The notes beneath the pieces are model-generated. The model ran no database searches and was not told the DNA's origin. It was given only the letters and a program-made list of their open reading frames with translations. Source: Aspidiotus rigidus (taxonomy: Eukaryota > Arthropoda > Insecta > Hemiptera > Diaspididae). From it: 64,000 bases of DNA. The stretch covers positions 2,480,001-2,544,000 of the forward strand of contig JAVHKY010000038.1 of NCBI GenBank assembly GCA_035079385.1. The letters are read 5' to 3'. The translations under genes and the position numbers were made by a program. Shown here piece after piece: positions 3,101 through 60,034 of the stretch. Each line of letters starts with the position of its first letter. Position 1 is the stretch's first letter.

Positions 3101-5640
3101 TTGAGTATTACTTCGTCTAATAATGTAGAATAACTCCCTTTAACGACGACATACTCAACGACTAAAACGTACGGAGTAATTTGAATAGAGCCACAGAAAT
3201 GAAAAAACACCGGAGCGCTTTCGATTAAAAAACCATTGTCAACGGGGACGTGAAAGCAACTGAGCCAACTCCGGCCGGCAACAAGAACTACCGAGGAGGA
3301 CATGACTGAACTAGCGAGTCATCACAATGTGAATCATACTCGTAAACTAATTCAATCGAACCCTCATCAGGTATGTACCCGTTAAGCACATTTAGGTTAT
3401 CGTTATTCAGATGGCGAATAATTTCGATGTGTTCTAGCGCGGTACGTTTGAAAGCCGAGGACTCTCTATGGAGGAGGGACTTGGATCCCTCTATGAAACC
3501 ATGGTGAGTGGTAATAAGATGGTCCGCAAAAGCCGAATCACCCAATTTCTTCTTTTCCCACGCCTTCCTATGCTCATCTATTATAATTTTGAGCTGACGT
3601 CCAGTCTCTCATATATAAATTCCATTACAATCATTACACTTAATTTTGTAAACCCCGCTTCTTTCGACCAGTGGGATGGGGTCCTTTAACTCAACGAACA
3701 AGCTTTTTACAGTGTTCAGATTGTAAAACATTGGCCGAAACCCAAATGGGCGGAGGACACGACCTAATTGGGAAGAAAATTTCCCCAAAAACGGAAGCCT
3801 AATCCAACGTTTTCTACTATCTGACGCTGGATTACGGGGGAGGGAGGTAGTGGAATCAAGGCATTTCCGAGTCAATTTCTTATGGACCATCAAGTCAATA
3901 TCCAAGCTGATCTCGTTCACTCTGGCCAAGTGCTTTATAGTCAAGAGCTCCTGTTGAAAGGCGAGCTGACCTAATGGAATACTCGTCAACTGGTGGATAT
4001 AACTATTAAAACCGGCATATTTGTGAGCAATCGGGCAGAAAGATCTGCCGTGGACAGTAATATCGGTCAAGGTATCTTTTCTATATATGGCGAATTCGTG
4101 GGCACCTTCTCTATTAGAGATAGTAAGGTCCAAAAAATTTATAGATGAACCGCCTACTTCTAACGTGAATTTGATGGATGGGTATAAACTGTTGAGATAC
4201 CTGAGAAACTCCAAAAGGAGATCCCGTTGACCGGTCCACGAACACAACATATCGTCGACGTACCTGTGCCAATAATATATATGACCCAAAAACCCCTGAC
4301 CAGAGGAAAACAGATCAAGCTCAAATTTAGACATGAAAACCTCCGAAATGAGGGAACCCAGAGGAGAGCCAATAGGGATACCTACCTCCTCAGGAAATTC
4401 GAAAAATTTGCCTTCAAATTTGCAAAAGTTGGGAGACCAACAAATATTGAGTAAATTAAAAAATTCTGTCAATTCTTCGTGACAGATATTAGATTGGATC
4501 AAAAGGTCTCCCATATGTTGCATGGCAGTAGCTCTAGGGATACTCGGAAATAAGCCGACAACGTCAAAGGAGCATAGAGTTGAATCAGGCGGAAGAATGT
4601 CATCCTTAAGCTTATTAGCCAAAGAGACAGAATTCTTTACAGAGTAGGATGACTCAAATTCCACTCTAGATTTGAACCAACGGTCCAAAAATTTCGCCAG
4701 GAAGTACGTGGGGGAAGACACAAAAGAAACGACCGGCCGCATCGGGGTGTCCCTCTTATGAACCTTAGGTAGCCCGTACAAGAGGGCCGGCACTGGATTG
4801 GGCTCAAGAAGCATTCTTTTAAGCTTAGCGGTCTTAATAATAAATTCACAAGTGTTTATAACACGTCTAACTTCTTTGACGTGATTTGGAAAATTGAAAT
4901 CCGCATTTTCCTTGGCGCCACACTGGTCGAGGACGTCATAGACCTTGGAGACGTAAGAGGACTTATCCATAACGACAATGGCATTCCCTTTATCAGCCTT
5001 AGCAATGGTTAAGCCCTCCTCTCTGACCTTCCTCTTGATCCTCTTAATCACCTCAAAGGCCAGATCATTCATACGAGGGAGGGGGGTATCGCGGACAAAG
5101 GCGGCACACGCTTTCTGAGTATTGACCCCAGGCCCAATTTTTATTTCGAGGTCCGCAACAACATTGGCCAAAGTGTTAGCATTATTAAGAGGGGGTAGCC
5201 CGAATTTTAACCCCTTCTCCAAGAGATACAACTCGTCACTCTCAAACTCAACATTACTACAATTTATAATCCGCGGTTGAAACTTTTGGATAACGCTGAC
5301 GTCAGTACTCAATTCCTGGACAGCGAAGGCATTCAAATTTAGGAGGGAGCTAAGCTTCTCATTTTTCTTACGTTTCAATTTAGCCTCAAAAGACCGACAT
5401 TTAAGGTTAACCGACTTGATAAACAGATCCAACTCACCCGGCGAAAGTAAAGCAGAAAGCTTAGAATGGACCAACAAGTTCAACCTTGTGGTGATATTCA
5501 GCTTCCCATGCCACCTCCGCAACTCGGTACGGATCCATTTTTCTATCAAAAATTTTTCCAGTTTCCTAGTGGTCTGAACACAATTGGAGAACAGCCGAAA
5601 TTTGATAAACTTGGGTTTCACATGCAATTTTAGACACTTA
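3101..5640 (-). mobile_element. Penelope-like retroelement, near full length (copy B)
   Basis: Whole element containing the ORF at 3288-5627 plus about 190 bp of 3' non-coding sequence (3101-3287). That tail is shared, with ~80% similarity by eye, with 1370-1640, 31470-31710, 33690-33950 and 41890-42130. It ends against the truncated 5' end of copy A, so copies B and A are a direct tandem. No LTRs of the retroviral kind, poly-A tail or clear target duplication was seen. The 5' end at ~5640 is approximate; it is followed by a unit of the 108-bp repeat. Confidence 0.8.
3288..5627 (-). pseudogene. Penelope-like element polyprotein (RT + GIY-YIG endonuclease), one in-frame stop
   Basis: Near full-length Penelope-like ORF, open for 672 codons from the start at 5627, then interrupted by TGA at 3609-3611 and open again to 3288. 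Penelope RTs prime on target DNA and are related to telomerase; the C-terminal GIY-YIG nuclease nicks the target. Visible motifs: N-terminal basic region; KADKGN (D212), the DKG block typical of the family; LPKVHK 286-291; CSFDVVGLF (catalytic Asp ~354); GIPIGSPLGS 417-426; HRYVDD with Y456-D459; SINFLDLTI; then VY-K-C-DC with C664 and C667 and GIYI. The stop replaces the Gly of the YIG part of GIY-YIG, so a single codon change disables the nuclease while the RT stays open. Start chosen as the first Met of the long frame. Confidence 0.9.
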
Positions 5641-31712: not shown

Positions 31713-33960
31713 TGAAACTAGGTAAATTGAAAAGGAAGAAAAATAAGAAAATTTGTTCTCTTCAGAAAAAGAAAGAAAATTTGAATAACCCCGCTGTCCA
31801 GGAAGTGAGACCTGAGGTCAGTGTTATCCAAAACTTCCAGCCGCGCATTATAAACTGCAGTCGGGTTGAGTTCAATAGCGATGAGGTGAAGAAAGGGTTG
31901 AAGTTCGGGTTACCCCCTCTTAATAATAGTAATGCTTCGGCTAATGTTGTTGCCGACTCGATGTGAGAATCAGATCTGGGGTTAATGCTCAAAAAAATTG
32001 TGCTGCTCTTGTCCGCAATACCCCCTCTCTCGCAGAAACAATTACGCGATGGAAGTGATTAAGGGAATAAAGAGGAGGGTCAGGGAGGAGGGCTTAATCA
32101 TCACGAAGGCTGACAAAAGTAAAAACATTGTCGTGATGGAGAAGTCCTCCTACGTCTCCAAGGTCTATGACGTTCTCGGCCAGTGTGGTGCTAAGGAAAA
32201 CGACAGTTCCAAATTTCCTAAACACGTAAAAGAAGTTAGACGTGTGATAAACGAGTGTGAATTTATTGTCAAAACTCCCTCGCTAAAAAGATTGCTCCTG
32301 GAGCCCAACCCTGTGCCTCCCCTCTTGTACGGGCTACCAAAAGTCCATAAAAAAGATAACCCGATGCGTCCGGCCGTATCCTTTGTGTCCTCCCCCACGT
32401 ACGCACTGGCAAAATTTTTGAACCGATGGTTTAAATCGAGAGTTGACCATGAGTCACCTTACTCGATGAAAAATTCGGTCTCCTTGGCTGATAGGCTTAA
32501 GGATAATATTCTTCCGCTGGGATCGACCCTGTGTTCATTTGATGTGGTCGGCCTGTTCCCCAATATTCCCAGAGCAACCGCCATGCAACATATGGGAGAC
32601 CTTTTGATTCAAACAAATGTTCGCCGAGAAGAATTGGGTGAATTTTTCAATCTCCTCAATATTGTTGGTCTCCCAATTATTGCAAATTCGATAACAAGTT
32701 TTTTGAGTTTCCTGAAGAGGTTGGAATACCCATCGGTTCTCCTTTGGGTTCTCTCATTTCGGAGGTCTTTATGTCTAAGTTTGAGCTCGATTTGTTCTCC
32801 TCTGGCAGTGCGTATTTAGATCAGATTTTTTTATTGGCACAGGTATGTCGACGATGTGTTGTGTACGTGGACTGGTCCCCGAGAGCTCCTTTTGAGTTTC
32901 TCCAGTATCTAAATAATCAATATCCTTATATAAAATTTACTTTAGAAATCGGTGGCGCATCTATTAATTACTTGGATTTGACGATCTGTAATAGAGACGG
33001 TATCCATGAATTCGCCATACACAGGAAAGATACTGCGACCGATATTACTGTCCACGGAAAATCTTTTTGCCCTGTAGCCCATAAATAAGCTGGATTTAAC
33101 AGCTTAATCCATCGACTGACTAGTATTCCTCTCAATCAGTCAGCCTTCCAAAAAGAGTTATTAACTATAAAGCACTTGGCCAGAGTGAATGAAGTGAACT
33201 TAGACATCGACCTTATGATCCACAGGAAAGTTACTCGAAAATGCCTCGATTTCACCACCTCCCTCCCCCGCGATCTGACCCTAAACAGTAGAGGGCGTTG
33301 GATAAGGCTTCCGTTCTTGGGGCAGTTTTCATCTCAATTGAGTCGTGTCCTACGCCCCTTCGGATTTCGGCCTGTGTATTACAACCCCAATACCATAAAA
33401 AGTTCATTGGTTAGGCTAAAAGACCCCATCCAACTGGCCGAGAGGAGTGGTGTGTATGAAGTTGAGTGTAAGGATTGTAACGGAATTTACATCGGCGAGA
33501 CAGGCAATTAGAATCGCTGAACATAGGAAGGCTTGGGAAAAGAAGAATATGGGTGAATCCGTGTTGGCGGACCATCTAATCACTAGCGGCCATAGCATTA
33601 AAGAGGGGTCGTCCGAGATCCTCCTCTATAGAGAAAACGCGTGCTCGAAGCGTAAAGCGCTGGAACACATCGAAAAATAACGACGACCTTAATGTGCTCA
33701 ACAGGTACATACCTGATGAGGGGTTGATTGAACTAGTTCACAAGTATGATTCACATCTTGATGACTCGCTGGTTGAATCCTGATTTCCTCAAATGTTTCT
33801 AGTTTATAGCCGGAGTTGGTTCAGTCTCTTTCAAGTCTCCGCTGACAATGATCGTTTAATCGAAAGCGCTTCGGTGTCGTTAAATTTCTGTGGCTATAGT
33901 AAATTAGGTACTCCATTTGTATTACTCGTTTGAGTATGTCTTCTTCCGGTATATCTGGCC
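31713..33960 (+). pseudogene. Penelope-like retroelement copy D (RT + GIY-YIG), frameshifted
   Basis: 5'-truncated at a position equivalent to residue ~80 of the 3288-5627 ORF. The plus-strand frames 31998-32819, 32744-33088, 33176-33511 and 33447-33680 carry, in order: a KADKSKNIVVMEKSSYVSKVYDVL block, LLEPNPVPPLLYGLPKVHK, CSFDVVGLFPNIPRATA, IGSPLGSL (with frame shift near 32660-32745), a damaged catalytic block near 32845 (the YVDD codons are out of frame), INYLDLTI, and GIY-YIG with EVECKDCNGIYIGETG. A small deletion removes GRQLK after the YIG, and a stop interrupts at 33086. The 3' non-coding tail runs to about 33960 and mirrors 31460-31712. Confidence 0.85.
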
Positions 33961-42921: not shown

Positions 42922-43734
42922 TCAGATGTGAGCGTAAAAGTCAGTTTGTCTTAGGTAATGTAGGGTATTCGAAATGATGTCCTGGTTGTTTTTGAGTGCT
43001 TGGGTGAGTGAAGAGGGGGTATCCGAAGAAGAGCGAAGGGGTAAAAGTCTGGGGCATGAAAAAAAGTGTTCCACTGTTAATTTGTCTTTTTGACAATGGG
43101 GACATGAGGGAGGGGTTAGGATGTAGGGACTGATGAGGTGGGTGTGAGTAATTTTTGTGTGACCAATTCTGAGACGAGAGAGAATTACTTCTTCTCTTCT
43201 TGTGTTTTGAATGGAGGATACCCAAGGAACCGGTTTTTTTTTGATACTGAGAAGTTTATTATTTGTTTGATTTTCCCAAAGAGTGTTCCATGATCGTGTG
43301 ATGAGAGAACGATAGTAATTTTTGTAATCTAGGGTAGGTAGGGGTGAATTATCAGTTATTTGACTGAGGGAGGTAGCTTGTTTAGCGGCTTGATCAACTG
43401 CGTCGTGGTCGGGGAAATTGGTGTGTCCAGGGATCCATATGAAGATAATTTGAGTGTTGATTGTTTCCAAAGTGTGTAGTGTGAGAAAGATGCGTTGGAT
43501 TATAGGGTTAGAGTTGTATGCGTCTGTAAGGGAGTGGAGTGAAGAAAGTGAGTCAGTGAGAATAATGAATTTACCGTTTGGGGGTAGTTGAGAGAGGTGG
43601 GAAAGGCAGGAAGAAATGGCCATCAGTTCGGCTGTAAAAATAGAGGCTATATTTCGGATGCGATGAGAAGATATTTCCCCGTCGATGGAGTATGCGTAAG
43701 CTGCTTTAGTATTTTCGACCCATCGGTGAGGCAA
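42922..43734 (-). pseudogene. LINE RNase H domain and C-terminal zinc-knuckle-like region
   Basis: Open frame of 270 codons. RNase H type I motifs: IFTAELMAISSCL (catalytic Glu in the TAEL motif), IILTDSLSSLHSL (catalytic Asp in TDS) and IFIWIPGHTNFPDHDAVDQAAK (IWIPGH and the final Asp of the D-VDQ-A motif). The first catalytic Asp (usually in the TDGS motif) lies upstream in another frame around 43740, where a frameshift separates it. The C terminus has CPHCQ-----VEHFFSCP, a CCHC motif usual in LINE ORF2 proteins. Recently inserted judging by the long frames, but truncated. Confidence 0.85.
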
Positions 43735-44219
43735 AGTGAATGGTCAGGGTATTCTTGAAGTAGTTTGTTGATATGTTGGGTAAAACCAGGTTTGTCAGAT
43801 TTTGGGATTTCTGTGAGATCTAGGCGAATTTTAGGTTGAGGGAAGGTCCAAGGTGGGAAGGTTGTGTATATGGATTCTAGGAGATGTGCTATGAATGGTT
43901 TGTTGATCAGGTGATTGAATTGAAGGCGAATATGTTTGGTGGAGGATTGGTTGTAATTGTGGTGAAAGATTCGGTTAAAGATTGGAAGTTGTGGGAATTG
44001 TGCTACAGAGGGTAAAAAGTTGAAGGTTAGGATGAGCCTTCGACAGTGAAGGGGAGGATCTGGGGCTTCTGTACATAAGCTAAGTTTGGGGCTGGTGCGA
44101 TAAGCTCCCAGGGCAATACTGAGAGAAGATGTCTGGATGGGGTCGAGTAAGGCAAGGACGGTTTTTTTCGCTGTGTTGTAGTTCGGGGAACCATAATCTA
44201 ATTTTAAGCGAATAAGACT

Positions 44220-45011
44220 TTAGTATAGAAGAAGGAGTAACTTTCTGTTGCAGCCTTTAGATGGATGAGATATGTATTTTATTATGTTTAGAGCGCGTGT
44301 GCATTTGGCTTTGAGGGTTTTGATGTGGGGGGTCCAGGTAAGTTTTTGGTCAAAATGTAAGCCGAGAAGTTTGCCGTAGTTACGAAATGGGATTTGGAAG
44401 TTTTGTAGAATTAGAGGAGGTAAGGAGGGTATAGGATTTCTTTTTTTAAAAATAACTGAGTAGGTTTTCGAGGAAGAAAATCTGAATCCTCTTTTTGATG
44501 TCCATGTAGTGATTGAGTTAAGGGTATCCTGTAGGAGTCTGTGGGCTCTTTGCGGATTTGCTGAACGGATAGTGATGTTATAGTCATCAGCGAAAAGACG
44601 CTGGGTGAGGGGGGGGGGGGGGTTTACACATTTGGTGATATCATTTATTGCTATTAGAAAAAGTAAGACACTGAAGACTTCTCCTTGAGGGACTCCATTT
44701 TGGACCGAAAGGGGAGGGGAAGTTATGTTATTGATTCTTACTAGAAGGGTTTTGTCGTTGAGAAAACTTTGTAGGATGTTAGGGAGGTGGCCTCGGAGAC
44801 CAATTTCGTAAAGTTCGGTAGAGATGAGGTGTCTCCATACTCGGGGAAAGGCCTCTTGGAGATCAAAGAAGATAGAGTATAGGGAGGATTTGTTATTGGT
44901 GACATCGTTGATTTGAGATTGGAGATCATAAAGGGGTTGTATAGTGTTCCGTCCTTTTCTGAAGCCATATTGGAAGGGAGAGAGGATATTATTGGATTCT
45001 AGATACCACAA
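44220..45011 (-). pseudogene. LINE reverse transcriptase (5'-truncated)
   Basis: A 263-codon open frame with LINE RT motifs: LSPFQYGFRKGRNTI, YSIFFDLQEAFPRVW (catalytic FDLQEAF, usually FD--KAFD), NGVPQGEVFSVLLFLIAIND (PQG motif with S-L replaced by EVFS) and RLFADDYNI (catalytic FADD). RT activity would copy the element's RNA at a nicked target. The upstream endonuclease domain is missing because the insertion is 5'-truncated. The frame closes at TAG 44220, and the downstream linker and RNase H follow in other frames. The GVPQGSVLSPLL consensus appears changed at two places. Confidence 0.85.
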
Positions 45012-46700: not shown

Positions 46701-47135
46701 TTTCCGTGATTGCAGCAGTCACTGCACCTGCAGCTGGTTTAGACTCGCGCCGTCGTGAAAAATTTTTGATTCATCAAGAATAATATTTTGTGAAATTTTC
46801 AAATTGTGTGGTCCTGGGAAAGGCGAAATTTTTTTATCAAATCCAGACCTACGACAATATCATATTCACAAGTATTAACTACAAAAATCCAGACTGGATA
46901 ATCTAGGTTAAAGATTTTGAAATTAATTTTTGCTAAACCTAGCAAAGAGAGCTTCCCCCCCCCCCCCCCATCGTTTTACAAGATTGTAAATCAGCGTTAC
47001 TGAATGGGAAAATGGTCGCGTTTATATTGCGGATCGTATCAAACGATGTGATGGTGATGTTCGCTCCTGGATCGTAAAGACCGGATTGCGAAATACCATT
47101 AGCAACGACTGGAATTTTAATGAGCGGGGAGAGAA

Positions 47136-48011
47136 TTAGTTTTTCACATCCGGAACAGACTCGTTGAGGACATTCTCCAAAAGTAGATTATTGGCCACTT
47201 TAATAGGCTTCTTTTCGAAATTCTTAGTTTCTTTTTCATTTTCTGGATTAAGAAAGCAAGCGGAATCTTTATGATTCCAATGAATCCTGTTAGCTTTCTT
47301 GCAAAAGGAGCACGAGATCTTATTTTTAGCCGGTTCGACCGGCCTGTAAGTACGTAATTGACGGGAGTTAGAAGGTTGCACAGTAAGGTGCTCTAAGGCT
47401 TGAAGCTCAGAAAGAAGACAAGATTGAGAGACGATATCCGCCTTGTTTAGCTTATTTCGCACGTTTTCGGGTAGCCCTACCACCACTAAATTAATGAGAG
47501 ATTGAACAGTGAGTTCAGGATCCGCGTCGATTAATAAACGAATCATTTTGAGCGCGAAGTTAGCGAGGGAACCACCAATATATCGATAGTTGAACGCGGT
47601 AACAATTCCGGACCAACCTTTGGGCGAGAAAACCTTGACAAAGATGGCTCTCCATTGAGTCCATGATGTTTGCAATCCTATCTGCTGCAGTTGAATAGCA
47701 AACCATGGATTCGAGGAACAAACGAAAAGTTTTGGTATATTGAGTTTGCTTAACCGTTAAGCGAATGCGCTTGGATTCGAACTGCTTCAGCCAGGCTTCT
47801 GGGTTTTTCCATTAAATTTTTCGAGCACGAAATCTTTAGCCAACGATCTCGATGTAGACTTCACGACAGCACTGGGTGTAAGATTGGTAACCGACGGAGA
47901 CAACACCACAGAATCCAAAAAGGTATCTTTAAAACGGGCATCACCAAGTTCCGAATTAAAATATCCAATCCGAAAGTTCCGAGAAATGAGTTCCAAAACT
48001 GAAATGTTCAA
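47136..48011 (-). pseudogene. Ty3/Gypsy Gag remnant
   Basis: Two frames (48011-47787 and 47675-47136) separated by a stop/frameshift. The second carries a capsid-like region (W---FV-VFSPKGWSGIVTAFNYRYIGGSLANFALKMIRLLIDADPELT) and a partial zinc knuckle (ISCSFCKKANRIHWNHKDSAC, i.e. C-x2-C-x7-H-x5-C). Between 46700 and 47136 the protease is unrecognisable apart from a possible D-GAN block near 47060. It heads the same minus-strand element as 45078-46700; no LTR was found on either side. Confidence 0.6.
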
Positions 48012-48080
48012 AAACTTATAATTCCAATCTATGCTTAGGGGGCAATATTGTCATTTTATTTCCCGTGTCTTGGTGAATAA

Positions 48081-48281
48081 CATCGGGATCTAAAGTACCC
48101 CTGTCATGCTCCGCTTTATCACGGGACCAAAAAAACGCTGTGAGACAGCATCTACACTTTTCTTCTGCACTCGGAACTTGAACGTAGTATTTACAAGCAT
48201 AAATCCTGACAGGATTACTATCTATACCTTTGACGGGTTTTTCATTTTTGACATGTTCCATGTAAATATGTTTCTAAAGAA
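48081..48281 (-). repeat. 201-bp in-frame tandem duplication, unit 1 (exon-like)
   Basis: CATCGGGATCTAAAGTAC recurs at 48081 and 48282. The 201-bp period equals 67 codons, and both units encode the same Cys-containing peptide (MEHVKNEKPVKGIDSNPV; CRCC/CRRC; FFWSRDKAEHDR) on the minus strand. In this unit the frame runs on for 21 codons (to a stop near 48016). Amino-acid conservation between units suggests former coding function; identity about 93% by eye. Confidence 0.75.
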
Positions 48282-48470
48282 CATCGGGATCTAAAGTACT
48301 CCTGTCATGCTCCGCTTTATCACGGGACCAAAAAAACGCTGTGGGACAGCGTCTACACTTTTCTTCTGCACTCGAAACAGGAACGTAGTATTTACAAGTA
48401 TAAATCCGGACAGGATTACTATCTATACCTTTGACGGGTTTTTCATTTTTAACATGCTCCATGTAAATAT

Positions 48471-48851
48471 TGTGACGTTCTACCAGTCACCGAATATCTC
48501 TTGACGCCAATAATAAAGAACAATTACGAAAACCGAGCTTTATTACTGGTACCGCAAGTACAACACTTCTAAACACCGTTAAACTGTAACACAATCGCGT
48601 TAAAGAACGAGAACACGTTAACTATCGCTTTAAGATTACAACTGAATCGCTTTATCGGGTTGCTGCCGGCTATTTATAGTCTCACCCTTATTTCCGGAAT
48701 TCTCGAGATTTCTTCTAGAACGGCAAACAGGTTATGCAAGAGCCCTTACAATCAATCGAGCACGTTCTAGGTTGTTCAAGCGTATTCGGCGAAGTAGTTA
48801 AGCGATAAGTACGCTTCCTTGCGGTGTCTGCTATTATAGCAGAACGCCACA
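48471..48851 (-). repeat. 3' LTR of the RT-less Gypsy element
   Basis: 381 bp, TG...CA ends (TGTGACG...GCCACA on the plus strand). On the minus strand it has a TATA-like CTATAAATAG (plus 48670-48679) and downstream an AATAAA signal (plus 48539-48544), so U3, R and U5 can be ordered. No difference from the partner LTR was seen. Confidence 0.93.
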
Positions 48852-48862
48852 CTTTCCCCTCC
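48852..48862 (-). other. Polypurine tract of the RT-less Gypsy element
   Basis: GGAGGGGAAAG on the minus strand, directly before the 3' LTR and immediately after the ORF stop codon (48863-48865). It primes plus-strand DNA synthesis in LTR elements. Confidence 0.85.
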
Positions 48863-51800
48863 TCAGTTTTGAACGTCCCGTTCAAACGCCGGACTCCATA
48901 CAGCTAGTCTATTTCGGTGGACTACTTTGAACTTTCTGTCCTGTTGGATGCGATAGATGACATCGTTGATTCTCTTCACGACTGTCCAAGGTCCTTCCCA
49001 ATTGCACTGTAATTTTGGGTTCTTCCCTTTCTTTCTCTGTGGGTTGTAGAACCACACCCTATCCTGAGGTTCAAACTTGGTTTCATCTGCACAGATGTCA
49101 TAGCGTGCCTTCATCCGGTCGCTAGCAACTTCTAAATTTTCCCTGACCAGCTCATGTACCTGCTTAAGTCGGTTCTTCAGTTCTTGTGTGAATGGCTTGA
49201 CTTCTTGAGGTGGCTGAGGAGGGGTGCCCAGCTCTAAATCACACGGTAATCGAAGTTCTCTTCCAAAAATGATTTTTGCAGGTGTTTCCTTGGTGCTCTC
49301 ATGGATTGAAGACCGATAGGCTAGCAGGAACAATGGAAGTAGCTTGTCCCAATTCCGCTGGTCACTATCAATTACTTTGGATAGGAATTGGTCTATTGTT
49401 TTGTTGAACCTCTCGACCATACCATCAGATTGTGGGTGGAGTGGTGTTGTACGAGTTTTCCTCAATCCCATCAGCTTAGCCACTTCTCCAAATACCTGGG
49501 ATTCAAAGTTTCTTCCCTGGTCTGAGTGTAACTCCAGAGGTACTCCAAACCTTGAAATCCAGTTTTCCACCAGCGCTGTTGCAACAGTGACGGCTTCACA
49601 ATTTGGCAGTGGGTAAGCATCCATCCATTTGCTGAAGTAATCTCCTACTACTAGAATATAACGATTACCTTGGTCAGTTTCTGGAAATGGTCCTGAGATA
49701 TCTGCCGCAATCCGTTCAAAAGGGTATCCCACATTGTAGATTTGCATCTTAGCTCGGCCCCTAGTATTGGGCCCCTTACTGGCATTACATGTTCTGCAAC
49801 ATTGAATCCAATCCTCTATATCACTTCTACAGGCTGGCCAGTAAAACCGTTCCCGAATCTTGGCCAATGTTTTTGTTATTCCAAGATGACTACCAGATGC
49901 GTCATCATGAACACTCTTCAAGACATCCGGAACAAGTGCTTCAGGTATCAGTAGTTGACGCCGGTCTGATCTGCCATCTGTTGTTTCCCAGATCCGGTAA
50001 ACAATTCCATTTTCTACTTGAAGCGAGTCCCATTGTGACCATAAAATCTTTAAATTTACTGACTGCGAGCTGATATCCTGCCAGACTGGTCGTTCACCTT
50101 TCTCCTTCCAGGCTAAGATGACCGAAATATCTTTATCCAGTTGTTGAGCATTTCTCATATCCACATTGGAATCTAGTTGTATGGATTTCACTGAGACTTC
50201 TTTCTTCACGTCATTGACTACAGTGCTTAGTTCTTCTTCAACTTTGGTCTGGAGGAGACAATCCTTGGCTTCCAACTCATAAAGTGGTATATCTCCACAG
50301 GGACTTCTTAAAAGGTCATGTTTCAGATCAATAATCAACCCATACTTTCGCATTAAATCCAGCCCCAGAATACAGTCATCTTCGATATCAGCAAGGATGA
50401 ATTTTCCAGTTATTACCATTGAGGAAATCTTGATAGATAGCTCAACAGTGCCCTTGGTCCAAGCTTGTTCACCCATGGCAGTCCTGAGGCGGTATTTTTC
50501 TCTCCAATTAATGGATAAGCCTGGGATGTCCTTGACCAATTGTGTCTTGATAACTGAACCAGTAGCAGCGCAGTCCATGCACATGTCTATATTGCGTCCA
50601 ATACTATCATTCCATCCCGATACATAAACGTTCTCACCTGAAGTACGCATTTTGGAAATTCTTATTTCTTGGGCCCTTCTCCTTGGCCCTAGAGTTGGTT
50701 GGCCCCTGGCAACTCCAGGTTGGAGTTTTCCACCTTGCAGTGATCTCCACTTAGGGCAACTGAGCTTGATGTGACCCTCTTCATCACAGTGGTAGCATCG
50801 ACGTTTGTCTCCAGTTGGTCTGACCTTTGTTTGCTTCAAATTTGTGGAACCTCGTCTACAAGACGCCTTTCTTGCAGCTTCTACTTCCAGGGCAAAGGAT
50901 AATGCTTCTTTCAAGGTTTTGCAACGCGCAATGCGAACTTGACTCTGAACCTCCCAGTCAAATATTCCATCAATGAATGCCTCAAGCGCAGTTTGTTCAA
51001 TGGCTGACATAGTAGCTTCTGGGTAAGCTTGGTGAGTTAATTTTAGGATTTCACTTGAAAACGCTTGAAGACTTTCTCCATGGTTCTGTCGACGGTATTT
51101 CAGTTCTCTTCTCCTGATGGGAGCCAAGTGAGCTTGACCAAAGCGTTGTTCAAGGACCTCAACCAACTTCTGGTAATTCTTCTTATCACCCTCAGTAATG
51201 TTGGACAGCAGCTGTAGTGCAGCTCCTCTCAAGCTGACAATCAAATTACCAGCCTTGGCTTTGTCATCCCATCCATTGAGTTGAGCTGCAATTTCAAACT
51301 GTGATTTGTACAGTTCCCAAGAGATCTCGCCATCAAATGTTGGTATTTTGACTTTGGCCTTTGATGGTTCCGTAACTGGTATGTTTCCTTCATTAGATCC
51401 AGAACTGAAAAAAGTAACGCCTGGCGGATCCACAACCATGCTTACTGTTGGATTTCCTTCCAGTCTTTGAAGTCGTTCCTCTATAATTTTCCATTGTTGC
51501 CCAAATTCCTGTTGGATTCCCTCAACCTGATGTTGGATTGGTTCAATTTGGCGTTTAACCTCAACATCGATAGTCTCTCTGAGCCCATCAAAGATTTCTG
51601 CCTTATTCCGTTCGAGCTTCTCCTCCATCGCGTTCTTGTTCCGTTCGAGTTTCTCCTCCACTGCGTTCTTGTTCCGTTCGAGTTTCTCCTCCACTGCGTT
51701 CTTGTTCCGTTCAAATTTCTCCTCCATTGCAGTAAACCCAGTCTTCAGATCTTCTGAATTTTTAGCCATTGTATCGGTCAACATTTGCAGCATTGCACTC

Positions 51801-52024
51801 AAATCTATGGCTGGAGACTGCTTTGTTGGCGTACCAGTCCCAAGGTTTCCAGTAGCCTCGTCAACCTCAAATTCAAAATTGGCCACGTCCAAACCCGAGT
51901 CTTCGAATGCTTTTTCCAGACGATCGGCTAATTCATTTTTGGTTCCGCTAACAGAGAGGTTACGATTCCGGAGTTCCTCGCGGAGTTGATCCCGAGTAAG
52001 TTCATGAAACTTCTTCTTCACCAT
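48863..52024 (-). CDS. Gag-protease-integrase polyprotein without RT/RNase H
   Basis: Intact 1,053-aa ORF. Residues ~6-40 form a SAP-like DNA-binding helix pair (LTRDQLREELRNRNLSVSGTK-ELADRL). Residues ~101-141 are four tandem 12-residue EEKLERNKNA-type repeats in a coiled coil (100-190). Gag capsid ~225-400 (IPTFDGEISWELYKSQFE), zinc knuckle C-x2-C-x4-H-x4-C at 410-423. Protease ~470-565: Asp484 lies in MDCAATGS where D-T/S-G is usual, with ILGLDLMRKYG following. Then about 50 residues and a direct jump to the pre-integrase segment (ILWSQWDSLQVENGIVYRIWE). Integrase: HHCC (H706, H713, C743, C746), catalytic D775, D835, E871 (DD35E intact) and a C-terminal chromo-like/SH3 region. RT and RNase H, normally ~450 residues between protease and integrase, are missing with the frame preserved; the junction is near 50150-50260. 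Start is the first Met, 65 bp after the 5' LTR. Confidence 0.95.
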   Translation of the reverse strand: MVKKKFHELTRDQLREELRNRNLSVSGTKNELADRLEKAFEDSGLDVANFEFEVDEATGNLGTGTPTKQSPAIDLSAMLQMLTDTMAKNSEDLKTGFTAMEEKFERNKNAVEEKLERNKNAVEEKLERNKNAMEEKLERNKAEIFDGLRETIDVEVKRQIEPIQHQVEGIQQEFGQQWKIIEERLQRLEGNPTVSMVVDPPGVTFFSSGSNEGNIPVTEPSKAKVKIPTFDGEISWELYKSQFEIAAQLNGWDDKAKAGNLIVSLRGAALQLLSNITEGDKKNYQKLVEVLEQRFGQAHLAPIRRRELKYRRQNHGESLQAFSSEILKLTHQAYPEATMSAIEQTALEAFIDGIFDWEVQSQVRIARCKTLKEALSFALEVEAARKASCRRGSTNLKQTKVRPTGDKRRCYHCDEEGHIKLSCPKWRSLQGGKLQPGVARGQPTLGPRRRAQEIRISKMRTSGENVYVSGWNDSIGRNIDMCMDCAATGSVIKTQLVKDIPGLSINWREKYRLRTAMGEQAWTKGTVELSIKISSMVITGKFILADIEDDCILGLDLMRKYGLIIDLKHDLLRSPCGDIPLYELEAKDCLLQTKVEEELSTVVNDVKKEVSVKSIQLDSNVDMRNAQQLDKDISVILAWKEKGERPVWQDISSQSVNLKILWSQWDSLQVENGIVYRIWETTDGRSDRRQLLIPEALVPDVLKSVHDDASGSHLGITKTLAKIRERFYWPACRSDIEDWIQCCRTCNASKGPNTRGRAKMQIYNVGYPFERIAADISGPFPETDQGNRYILVVGDYFSKWMDAYPLPNCEAVTVATALVENWISRFGVPLELHSDQGRNFESQVFGEVAKLMGLRKTRTTPLHPQSDGMVERFNKTIDQFLSKVIDSDQRNWDKLLPLFLLAYRSSIHESTKETPAKIIFGRELRLPCDLELGTPPQPPQEVKPFTQELKNRLKQVHELVRENLEVASDRMKARYDICADETKFEPQDRVWFYNPQRKKGKNPKLQCNWEGPWTVVKRINDVIYRIQQDRKFKVVHRNRLAVWSPAFERDVQN

Positions 52025-52068
52025 CTTGAATCACCACCAGTTTCAAACGCACAAAGTAGGCTTACGCA

Positions 52069-52086
52069 ATCCCACTTCTGACACCA
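52069..52086 (-). other. tRNA-Leu primer-binding site
   Basis: The plus strand reads ATCCCACTTCTGACACCA, the 3' end of insect tRNA-Leu including CCA. On the minus strand it is the primer-binding site, two bases after the 5' LTR. Match to tRNA-Leu is from memory of the GTCAG...CTGACACCA acceptor stem. Confidence 0.8.
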
Positions 52087-52088
52087 GT

Positions 52089-52469
52089 TGTGACGTTCTA
52101 CCAGTCACCGAATATCTCTTGACGCCAATAATAAAGAACAATTACGAAAACCGAGCTTTATTACTGGTACCGCAAGTACAACACTTCTAAACACCGTTAA
52201 ACTGTAACACAATCGCGTTAAAGAACGAGAACACGTTAACTATCGCTTTAAGATTACAACTGAATCGCTTTATCGGGTTGCTGCCGGCTATTTATAGTCT
52301 CACCCTTATTTCCGGAATTCTCGAGATTTCTTCTAGAACGGCAAACAGGTTATGCAAGAGCCCTTACAATCAATCGAGCACGTTCTAGGTTGTTCAAGCG
52401 TATTCGGCGAAGTAGTTAAGCGATAAGTACGCTTCCTTGCGGTGTCTGCTATTATAGCAGAACGCCACA
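52089..52469 (-). repeat. 5' LTR of the RT-less Gypsy element
   Basis: 381 bp, identical by eye to 48471-48851 (offset 3,618). TATA-like CTATAAATAG on the minus strand at plus 52288-52297 should drive the genomic RNA. Identity of both LTRs indicates a recent insertion. Confidence 0.93.
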
Positions 52470-52550
52470 ATATGTTTCCAGAGTTCCAGGCGGGGCCAAT
52501 CGTCGTAAACGCGAAAGCTTTCATCCGTTGCTGGACACTTTCTGAAATGA

Positions 52551-54515
52551 ATTACAATTTTTTTTTATTCATTTAAAACATTTTTAATGAATACTCAAAT
52601 AATATTTCTCTTTGAAGGGTCTAGCCGGTCAAGAATGGTCATCTGGCCCCCAGCACTGATTTCAAAACTGATGTTGGAATAATGTTTGGGGTCATTTAAT
52701 GATAATATTCTCCAATTCTGGTGCCCCCAGCCCTCTTCTACGCTGAGACAAAGCTAATAATAGATTAAAAAATACTTCACAATTTTTATCTCTCTTTCTA
52801 GTGGACAGATCCTCTTGAAACATTGGGTGTTGTTGGCTACATATGTGAACTACCTAGAAAAATTTTGATGCACATGTATGGGAGGCTTTGGAAAGAATTT
52901 AAATACCTTTTTGTCGTGATTTTGGCTGAAGGTGCCAGACTTTCCTCTGCAGTTTTATGTTCACCTACTCTAAAATGGTGACATATATTTTTTCCCGAAT
53001 TTTCGGTCCATGGGAACATTGTTAAAAAATATTAAAAAGTATGAAGTCCAAAAAAGTCCCAAAAAAGTATAAATGTTTGAATATGAAATGGTAGATAACG
53101 AAAAGAGAATGAACAAACTTTATTCTCTACAAAAATGCTCCGAGAACTAGAATATTATAAAATAATAAAGAGAGACTTTGAGAATTGCCTTATAATTAAA
53201 AAAAAATCACTCGTTATAAAAATTTTCCTAATATTATAACAAGTAATTATATCAAAATTCTGATTTAAAAAAATCATTTTAAAAATAATTCTACTCGATC
53301 ATGAGATAAAAGTTCTGAATCTATATTGTCAAATAATTAAACCTAAGTATCGGCAAAAAAATACATAGGTAGGTAATTGTAATCGTAATTTAAAAATACA
53401 TTTCGAGATATAGTTGTGAATACAATACTGGACCTTTTTTCAAAACGGATTCTGGAGGATTTCTCTCTCGAAATACAGCCTGCATTTCATACATCCTCAA
53501 AAACTTATTATTACACTTTGGCAGGACATCGATGGAACAGCTCCCAAACATGGGCGGCTCGAACAGTTTATTAATTGATGGGAGGCGATATAATTGGAGT
53601 ATTAAGGTTAGAAGTGAAGAGTAGTCGTTCTAACAATTTTCCTAACAACGATGCTTTTCATCATCTTTCCTTCTAGTTTTGTATAGACTGTATTTTCCAA
53701 AGCAACTGTGACCGGTGGTGGCTTGGGCCAAATAGAAATTCTGACTGATTATTTCATCTTTTCTATGTTTAGCCATTTGTTTCCCATCTTTTCACCATTC
53801 TTACATATGTTCGCACAGACATTTTAGTACTTCTTTCTTATCATTTAGAGCATTCTTGATCTAGCGCCACCTCGTAAATGGCCAGTGGTTGTATGGGTGG
53901 CACTTCAATATTTCAAAAAAAAATCAAAGAACTCATCTTCTATACGAGAACGAGAATGCGAGATGAAAGACCCACATTTTCATCTGTTTGGCTCAACAAT
54001 TTTATAGAGGGGTAAAATTTTACTTTTTCACAGGATTTTCCTCTTGCTTCTCAAAGCTCTTCAAACGTATGAAAATTGTCGCGTCGACTCAGCGCTGCAT
54101 ATATCGTATTATTTGACTGAAATCTCAAAGTTACCAGAAAAAAAAAAAAGGAAGGGAAAAGTTTCTTTCGCACGAGATACATTTATTATTTTGAATGATG
54201 TTTAATTCTCCGCCCAGGTGTACGAGTAAGAGCACAAAAAGGTTGACAAAACAGAAAATTCAACTTGGAAAAATACTCTTTTCAAATCGTCTGGTGGCGT
54301 GTCACTTCTGTTTTCGTCACTCGTATATGCGGTAAACACGAGTTGTGAAAAATTTGTTGACTTTTTTCCATTCTTCTCGTTCACCGTTATACTATTGAGA
54401 AATATTCCACAAAGCGTACGAAATAGGTATTATTAATTATGATTAAAAATTTAATCCACTTTATAAAATAGGTGAAGAAGTTTTTTTTTTTTTTTTTTAT
54501 TATTTACTTATTAGC
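52551..54515. other. Unassigned region
   Basis: Upstream (minus sense) of the exon-like segment. An 18-codon minus-strand stretch around 52735 (LSQRRRGLGAPELENIII) looks peptide-like but ends in a stop. 53.0-53.5 kb is AT-rich and non-coding; poly-A/T runs occur at 54138-54150 and 54481-54500 (20 T). No gene supported. Confidence 0.4.
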
Positions 54516-55633: not shown

Positions 55634-56485
55634 TCATTTTGGATTGATTGAGGTTGTGATTGCGATTCTTCCTGGTATATACCGATAGGATGGAGATGCT
55701 TTAGCGGGCGTTCTAAAGTAGCACCGCATGCTACCTTTAACTTGCGCCGACCGTATTTTCCCATCCTGGCTTTCATTGAGCGCTATGATGATCGCAAGCG
55801 GCCAGGTGTTTCTTTTCTTGAGTGCAGTGAACGGAAGTGTTTTCGGACAAAGGCGAAACTCAGGTAACTCGGATTCTTTTGGTTGTTGATACGGACGAGA
55901 TACAAATCGTGCGCATTGAGTGCATTTGCGTATTGTATTGTAAACAGATCGTCTTCCTTGAAGTAACCAATAACGTCGTCGGATAGCGGTCAACGTCTGA
56001 TCTGTTCCTGTGTGAAAATTTAGATGGTGATAGTGTAGGATGAGCAAATAGACAAACTTACTTTCGCTCGCTTTGGGTAGAAGGATGGGTAATCTTTCTT
56101 GAAATGAAATTTTTGCAAACTGGAATCTGCCATGAGATCTCAGGATTCCTTCTGAGTCCAATCGAATATGTAGACCATCAATTATCGTATTTTTCTTGTT
56201 GTTCTGTAAATCCTTGTAGATATTCGAAAAATGCTGTCGTTGGATTCTTCTTATCCAGAATCGTAGAGCTGTGTAATACGGATCGCTTCTTATCGTTTCG
56301 AAAAAATTCGTCATTTGTGGCACTCGCTCTGCAATAAAACGGAGTACGTATGATGTCGTTTTTATTAATTTATTGAAGTCCGAAAATTTTTCTAGAAGCA
56401 TAGACCAAATGTCAGTTTGTTCTTGAACTTGTACAGGTAATGCTGTGATGATTTCTGGTTCCACATTGTCGTCTTGTGTGTTCAA
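55634..56485 (-). pseudogene. BEL/Pao integrase zinc domain fused to C-terminal domain, catalytic core deleted
   Basis: Open frame of 283 codons. Residues ~1-110 are the region between RNase H and integrase. Residues ~150-195 form the integrase HHCC zinc-binding region (LILHYHHLNFHTGTDQTLTAIRRRYW and IRKCTQCARF). At residue ~215-222 (about plus 55825) the reading passes straight from a PEFRLCP stretch into KKRNTWPLAIIIALNESQDGKIRSAQVK, the C-terminal domain that normally follows about 250 residues later. The D-D-E catalytic core is therefore deleted in frame. Such a protein could still bind DNA but could not integrate. The stop at 55634 is the natural-looking end. Confidence 0.85.
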
Positions 56486-56882
56486 ATCGTGTTTTGCGTA
56501 CTGGGAGGGTTCATGCTTTGGCCATTGATTTGGAGATCCGCTGAGAAATTTCGGACCAGTGAACCAAGAAGATTTCTCGAAGTCCTGGAAGGTTTGGCCT
56601 CGAGAAGCTGGATCGGCTACGTTAAATTCTGCGGGTACATATCGACATGCTACTTTTGTGGTACGTATTTCACGAACACGATTTTCTTCATATGTAGGTA
56701 GAATTTTGGATGTGTAAATGCGTGCTGATGTACACTTGCTGTCGGTCCATAGGATTGCTGGATTTTCAGCGTCTAGATGGAGAGATTTTCTAACAAAACG
56801 TAATGCACGCGCGCCAAGTGTGGCGGCAAGTAGCTCGAGTTTTGGTATTGTTAGGCTTCGTGCTGGTGCTACTTTAGCTTTT

Positions 56883-57928
56883 TCAAAGATGAACTCCGTG
56901 TTTCTCGTAAGAGGATCCCGTACGTAGATGACGAAACCATAGGTAACCTCTTTTACTTGCGTCAGTAAAACAGTGAAATTCAGTGCTTTCTGTTATAGGA
57001 GTTAGTCGTAACTGCAGTGTAGAGGTACTACGAAGATCATTGAGATTTTCTCTCCAGATTGTTGCTAAGTTCTCTGGTAACTTTTCATCATAACTCAGTT
57101 TAAATTCACGAATGGATTGGAGGAAGATTTTTGCTTTTAGAGTTATTGGTGCAAAAATTCCAAGCGGATCGTACGATCTTGCGATGTTTTGTAATACAAC
57201 CCGAAATGTTGGCTCAACTTCGATGAATTTTGGAAGAGCCAGAAATATTTTATCGGTTTGTGTGTTCCATTTTAGTCCTAAGACTGTAACGGGATTTTCT
57301 GTCGCTCTTTTGATTTCAGGAATAGTTTGAAGTACTTCCTGGGATGATGACGACCATCTCCTGAGGTTCATGGAGCATTTTTCGAACATTGCAATTGAAT
57401 CCGATGCAATTTTGATCGCGTGTTCTTCGGAATGCGCTCCTGTAATCAGATTATCAGCATAGAAGTCGTGTGCTAGCAGTGGATACTGTGTTGCATATTT
57501 CTGTAAGTGGTAACGAATGGTTGCCTGCAGAATGAAAGAAGACGCAATAATACCGAAGGCTATGCGCGTAAAGTGTAAGCACAGTATATTTTCGGTCTCA
57601 GGTGGCTTCGATATATCTTTGAGCCATAAACATTTTACGTATTTTCTATCTTCTTGTTTTAACCCTATGCGAAGGTAAGCCTTTTCGAAATCTCCTATGA
57701 TCGTTACTTTGTGTTTTCTAAATCTGAGAATTATCCCCAGCTGGTCTTCAAGCAATTGTCGACCTTTGTATATCGCTTCATTGATCGAAAGAGTATTTTT
57801 CGACTGTTTGGCTTTACCAGCAAATACTATTCGTATCGGCGTTGATTTCTCAGGTTGATATACACCGTGGTGAGGTAAGTAAGAACCTTCATCATATTTG
57901 TGATGTGCGTTTTCAAGGATTCCAGCTT
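56883..57928 (-). pseudogene. BEL/Pao reverse transcriptase domain, frameshifted at both ends
   Basis: The frame holds ENAHHKYDEGSYLPHHGVYQ, FAGKAKQSKNTLSINEAIY, VTIIGDFEKAYLRIGLKQEDRKY (catalytic Asp in IGDFEKAY), FTRIAFGIIASSFILQATIRYHL and FYADNLITGAHSEEHA, the BEL-type catalytic box (YADN; YVDD or YVDN is usual). Then RRWSSSSQEVL, VLGLKWNTQTD and FTDASKRG (first RNase H Asp). One frameshift near 57950 separates it from the Gag-protease ORF, and another near 56945 (at the start of RNase H; GFVIYVRD follows in another frame) separates it from the integrase part. Confidence 0.85.
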
Positions 57929-60034
57929 CTATTTGCTCTCTGAATACATGTTATCGTATGCCTTTAATAATTCAGGTTTATTTTGTAGATTTTTATACAA
58001 GGATCTCAGTCGACCGATGGAAATGCCATAATTGCTTGGAAGAGTTTCCGGATTTATTTTCCATGGCCAACCAACGTGATAACGGTTATCAATAAGTTCA
58101 ATTTTTTCGTAGAATTGTTTTAATGCGTGTTCTTCTTCATCAGCTCGCGTAAGGTAAGCGTCTTTGATTCCAACAACATCAAGTGATACGAGTTGTTCAA
58201 TTGCTGCTGAGGTAGTGAGTAGGTACGATTGTTGTTCGATGTTGTTACCTTGAATTCCAGATATCATCCATCCGAATGAACTGGATACTAGATGAAGATC
58301 TTCTTCTACTGTGATTTTCGGTTCGTTGGCCATGAAAGTGAAGTAATAGTCTCCGCCTATCAACATAGTTGGTACCAATTCGTTACCTTCGTCTGCGAAG
58401 TTAATGTGTGAGTATTCTGGATATCTCTTCAAGAATTCGTGGTGGTCGATGCTGGATATATTTGTTGCAATCTCGGGTGCAGTTTGAACATTGATTGTTC
58501 TCTGTATTCCAGGCAATTCGATTGAGACTGTTGAGGTACGTAGTTTCTTTGGTTGGCTATCTAAAAATCCTTTAACAGGGATTTCTACTGTATTAGATCG
58601 TTTTAATTGCAATAAGTCCGCCATATCATCTTCCAGTAAGGTTCTAGGACAGCCACCGTCGAATACGAGGCGCACGTATTTTGAAGAACCTGTTTCCGGG
58701 TTTCGTATGCGCGTGCAGGCAGTTAGATGTGTTCCTGTTTTGCTCGGTTTTTCTACAAGTAAGGTTTGCGTTGTGGATGCCGTTGCTTTTGGTTCGTTGA
58801 TATTTTGATTTTCAGTTTGTTTCTCTGGAAATTTTATCGAGCACAAGCTGCTGCTATGATGATGTTGTTGGCAATGATAGCATTTCTTCGTTCTTCTGCA
58901 TTTACCTGACTCGTGTTTGTTGAGGCAATTAAAACAACTGCCGTTTATACGTGTTTTTCTGGCTGTTGCAGTAGGGTATGACGAACATTGATCTGAATAA
59001 TGCTCACCTTGACAAAATGCACAGTATGGTTGGTTTTGTCTGTGATACGAAGCTGACGGTACAGAAGCTTTCATCTCTGATGCGGACGCCGATTTCGGTT
59101 TGAAGGTATTTGTTTCAGGCTTTGGTGTTGAATTGTCGAATCTCGATGCTGGAATGGACTGACTGATGTTCGTAGACATAACAGAATATCGTTCCCGTAC
59201 CTTTATCAATTGGTCCATTTTCTTTCGAAAGGTTGGTAGAGTTAGTTCTTCTTCGGTTGAAAGACTAAAAATGATGCTCGTTGGAAATTTTTGAAAAATG
59301 ATGTTTTGCAGGTAGAAGTTGTTTTCAATTGATTCTCCATATTGTTCTAACGCCTTAAGCATGGCTTCGATCGAATTAAACGTCTGCCGGAGTTGCTGTG
59401 TATCTTGTTTCGATGGTTTTGTGGTGTGGATATCGCGGTATAGTTCGGCGATCAATGTTGTTCGGTCATCGTACTCATGATCCAAAGTGCTCCATGCTTC
59501 TTTGTAGCTGCTATCCAGGATGGGTAGGTGATTTATATAGTTTGCGGCTTCACCGGTTATATAATTTTGAAGACGTAGAAACCGTTGCTTATTCTCGATA
59601 GGTGCCCCGTCGAAGATGGATCTGAATGTTTCTTTGAATCTGGGATATAATCTCCGTTTTGTGCCGTCGAAGGATTGTAATTTTAGATGCGGAATCGATG
59701 TGTGTGGTTGGATCGCAATTGGTTGCACTACATTTTGTTGAGGAGCTGGTTGGTTCGCCGTATCCTTTGGTTCAATTTTCGAGTGTAGTTGCTCTAATTT
59801 AATTTGGGTTATGAACACGTTATCAAGAACTGGCACTGCGGTTGAAGCGAAAGAAACCTCCTCTTTCTTCTTTGTTCGAAATTGCTCAATTTTTGGTACG
59901 TACTTTTGGAAAAACGTAATGTGAAATTTGATTTCTTCCAGGTCTGGATTGTCAGATTTGAGAAGATCGTCAGCGGATCCGAGGTACTTTTCGGTCGTTT
60001 CAATATACCTTTGTAGTTCGATTTCAAGCGCCAT
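57929..60034 (-). CDS. BEL/Pao Gag-protease polyprotein
   Basis: Intact 701-aa frame. Gag: N-terminal helical region 1-60, then LKLQSFDGTKRRLYPRFKETF at ~117-138 and a DUF1759-like capsid core to ~280. Three zinc-finger-like stretches: C338-C341-H-C (AFCQGEHYSDQC), C367-C370 and C385-C388 (CFNCLNKHESGKCRRTKKCYHCQQHH). Protease: D459 in VFDGGCPRTLLEDD, where D-S/T-G is expected, and a second block (GGDYYFTFM). It ends in the connection to RT (VGWPWKINPETLPSNYGISIGRL), where a frameshift (near 57950) stops it. In a complete element Gag and Pol are one frame. Start is the first Met after the 5' LTR and primer site. Confidence 0.9.
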   Translation of the reverse strand: MALEIELQRYIETTEKYLGSADDLLKSDNPDLEEIKFHITFFQKYVPKIEQFRTKKKEEVSFASTAVPVLDNVFITQIKLEQLHSKIEPKDTANQPAPQQNVVQPIAIQPHTSIPHLKLQSFDGTKRRLYPRFKETFRSIFDGAPIENKQRFLRLQNYITGEAANYINHLPILDSSYKEAWSTLDHEYDDRTTLIAELYRDIHTTKPSKQDTQQLRQTFNSIEAMLKALEQYGESIENNFYLQNIIFQKFPTSIIFSLSTEEELTLPTFRKKMDQLIKVRERYSVMSTNISQSIPASRFDNSTPKPETNTFKPKSASASEMKASVPSASYHRQNQPYCAFCQGEHYSDQCSSYPTATARKTRINGSCFNCLNKHESGKCRRTKKCYHCQQHHHSSSLCSIKFPEKQTENQNINEPKATASTTQTLLVEKPSKTGTHLTACTRIRNPETGSSKYVRLVFDGGCPRTLLEDDMADLLQLKRSNTVEIPVKGFLDSQPKKLRTSTVSIELPGIQRTINVQTAPEIATNISSIDHHEFLKRYPEYSHINFADEGNELVPTMLIGGDYYFTFMANEPKITVEEDLHLVSSSFGWMISGIQGNNIEQQSYLLTTSAAIEQLVSLDVVGIKDAYLTRADEEEHALKQFYEKIELIDNRYHVGWPWKINPETLPSNYGISIGRLRSLYKNLQNKPELLKAYDNMYSESK

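Follow-up and report, generated by a model that had tools for sequence, protein, structure and literature searches.

The 64,000-nucleotide window analysed here, from Aspidiotus rigidus (Hemiptera; contig JAVHKY010000038.1, positions 2,480,001 to 2,544,000), carries on its minus strand, at 48471–52469, a Ty3/Gypsy long terminal repeat (LTR) retrotransposon that lacks reverse transcriptase (RT) and RNase H. The element is a recent insertion of a young, multicopy RT-less family, which confirms the observation made in the preliminary description of this sequence. Comparison with its relatives in the same genome indicates that it is probably a semi-autonomous satellite, supplying Gag and integrase and borrowing RT from an RT-bearing sister family.

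The RT-less family in the genome

The genome searched comprises 441 Mb in 102 contigs. The 34-mer of the deletion junction was found at 127 places with at most three mismatches, 37 of them exact, and the reversed pattern at no place in the genome. The preliminary description had looked to multiple copies with the same junction, a single copy with a junction lacking long-read support being fatal to its reading, and the genome has many. In an LTR search, in which the best 40 of 549 candidates were scored, 19 LTR pairs were read. All 19 possess exact 4-bp target duplications with different flanks, the LTRs were scored as identical in 16, and an open reading frame (ORF) of at least 1,042 amino acid residues is kept in 14. 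Three copies (L031, L032 and L035) match the window copy without a single difference across 3,999 bp. With a further copy, L050, and 13 fetched by means of the junction, 33 RT-less copies were read in total.

The window-type LTR start occurs 64 times, as 30 pairs and four unpaired occurrences. Every one of these pairs is spaced 3,565–3,626 bp, the length of the RT-less form, so that the window-type LTR is seen only at RT-less spacing; the corresponding spacing in the RT-bearing copies L051–L056 is 4,686–5,092 bp. Another LTR start, adjoining the polypurine tract (PPT), was found at 131 places; its carriers include RT-bearing copies as well as older RT-less ones, L063 for example, and some RT-less copies do not have the window-type LTR.

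Structure of the element

The features of the window copy are as follows, with the LTRs named in element orientation.

48467–48470, no strand: left target-site duplication, ATAT, read from the sequence
48471–52469, minus strand: 3,999-bp Ty3/Gypsy LTR retrotransposon without RT-RNase H
48471–48851, minus strand: 3′ LTR, 381 bp, identical to 52089–52469
48852–48864, minus strand: PPT GAGGAGGGGAAAG, adjoining the 3′ LTR
48863–52024, minus strand: single Gag-protease-integrase ORF of 1,053 codons (ORF calling and Pfam)
48905–48994, minus strand: integrase p58 C-terminal domain, residues 1011–1040 (Pfam PF22938, p58_C)
49433–49720, minus strand: integrase core, DD35E, residues 769–864 (Pfam PF00665; 35 residues from the second D to E)
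49775–49948, minus strand: integrase H2C2 zinc-binding domain, residues 693–750 (Pfam PF17921, E 4.2e-21)
50198/50199, minus strand: deletion junction, from comparison with RT-bearing copies
50348–50599, minus strand: retropepsin-like domain, residues 476–559 (PF13650/PF13975, E 1.1e-4 / 2.7e-4, below cut-offs)
50756–50797, minus strand: CCHC zinc knuckle, residues 410–423 (full motif; Pfam PF00098 E 0.021, below cut-off)
51602–51730, minus strand: 33-bp (11-residue) repeats in the Gag coiled-coil region
51902–52006, minus strand: SAP domain at the Gag N-terminus, residues 7–41 (Pfam PF02037, E 1.4e-9, above cut-off)
52067–52086, minus strand: primer-binding site (PBS) TGGTGTCAGAAGTGGGATTG, complementary to tRNA-Leu(CAG)
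52089–52469, minus strand: 5′ LTR, 381 bp, identical to 48471–48851
52470–52473, no strand: right target-site duplication, ATAT, read from the sequence

The identical 381-bp LTRs, the ATAT duplication, the tRNA-Leu PBS, the PPT and the 1,053-codon ORF, all listed in the preliminary description, were found again in the sequence. The PBS TGGTGTCAGAAGTGGGATTG occurs once in the window and pairs with the 3′ end of a tRNA-Leu(CAG) gene of the same genome. Intact copies have ORFs of 1,035–1,053 codons, which suggests that the number of 33-bp Gag repeats varies.

Two LTRs, a PBS, a PPT and a short target duplication place the element in Ty3/Gypsy, as does a Gypsy-type protease followed by integrase, the integrase domains scoring above the Pfam cut-offs and the protease below them. 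RT and RNase H, which in this group lie between protease and integrase, are absent here and present at that position in the sister family. No RT or RNase H was detected in the ORF by Pfam at E up to 1, and RT elsewhere in the element is ruled out because the ORF occupies nearly all of the interior. TRIM/LARD-type non-autonomous elements are defined by their having no coding capacity, TRIMs being small and mostly non-coding; the 1,053-codon ORF sets the present element outside this definition. Domesticated retrotransposon genes of the host are single or few fixed copies without LTRs, and the LTR pairs with target duplications in all 19 copies from the LTR search rule out such a gene.

The RT-bearing sister family and the break point

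The genome was searched with an RT segment of a related protein as query, and 98 of 1,607 candidates were scored. One family, at 51–60% identity to the query, accounts for 63 of these 98 matches; the remaining 35, at 39–43%, belong to other RT families. A stop-free match lying in a frame of at least 1,105 residues is present in 32 of the 63, one of which (L053) lacks part of the integrase. Copies L051–L056 of this sister family are 90.6–96.5% identical to the window element up to the junction and 91.9–97.7% beyond it, and all six have at the junction 1,425 bp (475 codons) that are missing from the RT-less form. RVT_1 and RNase H were recognized by Pfam in both RT-bearing copies tested. The claim that RT-RNase H had been lost with the frame kept is thereby borne out, and the break, at about 50198/50199, falls within the interval 50150–50260 where it had been expected.

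In RT-bearing copies the left break point reads GTGAAGAAAGA-TTTGG and the right GAGAAGAAGGA-AGTCTC, with one mismatch in the repeat; the RT-less junction reads GTGAAGAAAGA-AGTCTC. An imperfect 9-bp repeat, GAAGAA[A/G]GA, spans the break point. The RT side of the left break point was found at 76 places with at most three mismatches, a count obtained at a search sensitivity unequal to that behind the 127 junction places. There is also an RT-bearing subfamily with AATGAAGTG at the left break point, of which the three copies read (L066–L068) are broken. The sequence AATGAAGTG is common to some RT-less junctions and to this subfamily, which may be nearer than other RT-bearing copies to the source of the RT-less junctions of that type.

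The two families have their signals in common. Among 13 copies compared (six RT-less, seven RT-bearing), all 13 agree in the LTR start TGTGGCGTTCTGCTAT and the PPT, and 12 in the LTR end and PBS, L063 having given no pattern match. The LTRs of six RT-bearing copies measure 404–428 bp as against 381 bp for the window type, which has a changed U3 start. No RT-bearing copy with the window-type 381-bp LTR was found. The full-length master with matching LTRs that had been foreseen is thus seen in part: RT-bearing copies share the LTR ends, PBS and PPT, and none was found to have the LTR itself.

Gag and Pol lie in different frames in L051, L054 and L055 and in one frame in L052 and L053, the single-frame RT-bearing form arising via small indels at the Gag-Pol boundary. 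The shortened, frame-joining boundary is common to the window-type ORF and L052; RT-less L057 has the longer, two-frame boundary. The protease motif DCA of the window element is also present in the Pol frame of L051.

Mosaic structure of the window copy

The window copy was compared with eight RT-less and five RT-bearing copies, both in successive 200-bp chunks and over three blocks, the first two of which have the following positions in the window.

51289–52088, minus strand: block 1, recombinant 5′ segment (element nt 382–1181)
50208–51288, minus strand: block 2, junction-linked segment (element nt 1182–2262)

Block 1 of the window copy differs from RT-bearing L055 at only 3/800 positions (0.38%). 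From RT-less copies it differs by 2.8–10.9% in seven of eight cases (69/737 and 70/737 for L069 and L071, with 66 gap columns each) and by 3/800 in the case of L048. The order is reversed in block 2, where the window copy is 3/1081 from L069, 12/1081 from L071 and 64/1081 from L055; overall it shows 2–29 differences (0.19–2.68%) from the eight RT-less copies and 59–76 (5.5–7.0%) from the five RT-bearing ones. Block 3 (element nt 2272–3618) shows 3–35 differences from RT-less and 21–30 from RT-bearing copies. Among the RT-bearing copies, L052 holds a Gag N-terminal segment close to that of RT-less L058. The window copy thus appears to be a mosaic, and the simplest reading is template switching, in either direction, between co-packaged RT-less and RT-bearing RNAs. 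Trees of Gag-protease and of integrase disagree, and for this reason no tree was used for questions of origin or selection.

Coding constraint

Samples of 14 or 18 RT-less copies were offered to the selection tests, L033 serving as stand-in for the near-identical window-type copies. The unfiltered test used 9, 12 or 14 of 14 copies, depending on the region, and seven RT-bearing copies for comparison; the fuller filtered test used 17 of 18, and filtered tests had up to nine RT-bearing copies. Filtering retained only variants unseen in RT-bearing copies, the aim being to separate constraint from exchange.

Private variants shared by at least two RT-less copies number 28 nonsynonymous (N) to 21 synonymous (S) in Gag core-protease, 0.45 of the neutral ratio (p 0.005). 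For the zinc knuckle-protease portion alone the figures are 18N:13S (0.47 of neutral, p 0.03) and for integrase 7N:12S (0.19, p 0.00045). Private variants confined to a single copy lie nearer neutrality in Gag core-protease (78:29, 0.91) and in zinc knuckle-protease (44:17, 0.87). The contrast between shared and unshared variants in integrase gave a Fisher p of 0.021; before four more copies were added, this contrast had given 0.020 in integrase and 0.033 in Gag core-protease. The Gag N-terminal region after filtering yields 5N:3S (p 0.3). Unfiltered, shared RT-less variants stand at 0.27 of neutral in the Gag N-terminus, 0.36 in Gag core-protease and 0.17 in integrase. The whole-ORF pN/pS ratio is 0.18–0.29 in all 18 pairs with at least 48 differences (48–108 nt), these being 18 of the 21 non-independent pairs among seven RT-less copies picked for intact ORFs. 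By these measures transmitted variants appear clearly below neutral, and moderately so relative to the unshared class. The constraint check proposed in the preliminary description therefore came out in favor of selection on the RT-less family, and its suggestion that particle and integrase may come from the element itself gains support from this constraint.

Origin and mode of propagation

We propose that the RT-less family derived from an RT-bearing Ty3/Gypsy family still living in the same genome by losing 1,425 bp in frame, RT and RNase H included, from between two short repeats; the junction is observed, and all its copies would go back to one common origin. The RT-less RNA would be transcribed from the element's own LTR and translated as one Gag-protease-integrase protein. 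The shared cis signals and the mosaic suggest that particles are shared with the RNA and Gag-Pol of the sister family, whose RT would copy the RT-less RNA from the same tRNA-Leu primer site. The integrase of either partner could then insert the element, leaving the 4-bp duplication that is observed. That RT acts in trans, as the preliminary description had held, is argued by the RT-less length of all 30 window-type LTR pairs, and the mosaic exchange supports it. Purifying selection appears to act on its Gag, protease and integrase, so these most likely help the element's own propagation instead of being carried passively.

The best surviving alternative, although an unlikely one, is that the element is a passive passenger for which the sister family supplies Gag, protease, RT and integrase, its ORF being intact through youth and refreshment by recombination. 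A 5′ block has indeed been exchanged with an RT-bearing copy; among the 19 LTR-matched copies, five have an ORF cut short, and in four of the five the LTRs are no more than one base apart; some copies have a stop before the integrase; and the Fisher contrasts in Gag-protease are weak. Set against this, constraint is seen on shared variants private to RT-less copies, both in the Gag core-protease block that was not exchanged and in integrase, and intact ORFs persist in copies 48–108 nt apart.

Several further points weigh against the reading proposed here. An ORF of at least 1,035 residues is present in only 17 of the 33 RT-less copies read (14 of the 19 found by their LTRs, 2 of the 13 fetched by junction, and L050), and in 8 of 100 listed places, out of 121 in total, a TAG codon lies between protease and integrase. 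This TAG, carried by L058 and L063, sits before DKDIS downstream of the junction, where window-type copies have CTG and most others CAG; a few of the 121 places are RT-bearing. Single-copy private variants of integrase are themselves somewhat below neutral (94:48, 0.65, p 0.01). Shared and unshared variants differ with only borderline significance in Gag core-protease (Fisher p 0.065), and for the zinc knuckle-protease portion by itself the contrast lacks significance (Fisher p 0.24). The absence of stops from the seven picked copies, where random placement would give about 2–5, shows only that diverged intact copies exist, since the copies were picked for intact ORFs and the pairs are non-independent. 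Some pairs that include an older, broken copy stand at or above neutral: L033/L046 at 1.12 in integrase, L058/L057 at 1.57 in the protease block. Exchange with RT-bearing copies can refresh an ORF and so mimic selection, an effect that filtering reduces and does not remove, and unsampled RT-bearing alleles are a possible confounder of the constraint test. Gene conversion could also make mosaics. Finally, the protease active-site motif is DCA (50558–50575, minus strand); the canonical motif is D-T/S-G.

It is very improbable that RT comes from an unrelated retroelement, whether another Gypsy clade or a LINE. The other RT families among the scored matches, many with open frames, could in principle provide it, but the LTR ends, PBS and PPT are held in common with the sister family, with which sequence has also been exchanged, and LINE-type copying gives no full LTR pairs with 4-bp duplications. 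Still less credible is an origin of the RT-less form by splicing of genomic RNA and reverse transcription, as opposed to template switching or slippage: the deletion is clean and in frame, but by inspection no alignment of the break points gives a GT..AG intron, and the imperfect 9-bp repeat spans them. An assembly or collapse artefact at a single locus, for which no supporting point was found, is refuted by copy number, namely 127 junction places and 30 LTR pairs of RT-less length with different flanks.

If the element is the semi-autonomous satellite proposed here, it offers a natural experiment in which retrotransposon functions are separated. Should an element be able to drop only its polymerase and still increase in number alongside the family it came from, co-packaged genomes must be able to share RT. 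Preferential use in cis may apply to Gag, protease and integrase, the proteins that look constrained, and sequence data together with the contents of particles then allow a test of which proteins work in cis and which in trans. Any survey of LTR elements that relies on RT overlooks entire families of this kind that were active recently; such elements are uncommon genetic freeloaders that may nevertheless contribute some of the labor.

Surroundings of the insertion

A 194-bp sequence stands twice in tandem at 48076–48470, with a period of 201 bp and 94% identity between the copies, the pair ending at the insertion; no third copy was reported within 47000–54000. Other retroelement ORFs in the window lie at 1650–5627, 31998–32819, 42922–45011 and 55634–60034, which by eye we take to be Penelope-like, LINE-like and BEL/Pao-like.

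Relatives and known systems

Two protein searches with the protease-integrase segment as query gave 3,162 and 1,237 hits, of which 120 rows were listed, with 43–60% identity over the best local alignment. Most of the named relatives among the matches listed are Gypsy Pol proteins of arthropods; a few have bacterial or fungal labels, which could reflect contamination. Also among the matches listed are proteins with integrase and Gag or protease and no RT by Pfam, six of which were examined.

P0156, Bactrocera dorsalis (fly): no RT, no protease
P0170, Lucilia sericata (fly): no RT, protease kept, cut near the same place as the window element, H2C2 incomplete
P0204, Haematobia irritans (fly): no RT, no protease
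P0129, Aromia moschata (beetle): no RT
P0028 and P0030, database proteins without organism name: no RT

Their cut points differ by eye, and the six for this reason look like separate losses. All are known as protein sequences, and four of them (P0156, P0170, P0204 and P0129) come from gene annotations in which splicing may have been modeled; further RT-less rows listed beyond these six probably include many fragments. No relatives of P0030 or P0156 were found in scans of viral_contigs. Two candidates were rejected: P0113, in which integrase precedes Gag, and P0222, which runs from the zinc knuckle into the start of RT. The latter, the only protein match for Gag residues 1–430 (61%), by eye seems to have no protease, and Pfam recognizes only SAP in it. 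We suggest tentatively, as something possible and short of probable, that loss of RT-RNase H with Gag and integrase kept is recurrent and selectively maintained in this arthropod Gypsy clade. It would have given rise, from several origins, to long-lived satellites with their own particle, integrase and LTR, which multiply at least as well as the helper, recombine with it and need little but polymerase.

No Gypsy element losing only RT-RNase H was described in the open-licence titles and abstract openings consulted, which is no proof of absence from print. Other non-autonomous LTR elements resemble the present one in part. TRIM and Cassandra-type elements likewise depend on enzymes from elsewhere; TRIMs differ in that the window element keeps its 1,053-codon ORF. 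In wheat, RLG_Cereba and RLG_Quinta form a Gypsy pair within a single genome, one partner autonomous and the other not, with common LTR termini and PBS, and the non-autonomous partner is thought to contribute Gag (PMC11302176). The window element and its sister family resemble this pair in both respects, partnership in one genome and common LTR ends and PBS; the window element keeps protease and integrase, whereas the non-autonomous wheat form, as presented there, is without integrase. The non-autonomous Athila elements of Arabidopsis are similar in having intact ORFs under purifying selection and recombination between families; the non-autonomous forms described have gag, or gag and env, without pol (PMC2410132).

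The nearest precedent by way of working is mouse IAP 1-delta-1, in which a 1.9-kb deletion takes part of gag and pol (PMC6466679). Two of its traits recur here, an internal deletion after which many recent copies have an uninterrupted Gag-Pol fusion ORF and full-length relatives as possible helpers; on a third, action of the fusion protein in cis, the coding constraint bears only indirectly. The window element differs in having lost RT-RNase H while retaining Gag and protease, and it is a Gypsy element in another host, not an endogenous retrovirus. Membership of the mouse IAP family was rejected on the names of the relatives, without sequence comparison to IAP. The preliminary description had called this an unusual way of being non-autonomous; given IAP 1-delta-1 and the similar losses in other arthropod proteins, the RT-less element is better seen as a variant on a known theme, and one that is possibly recurrent in arthropods.

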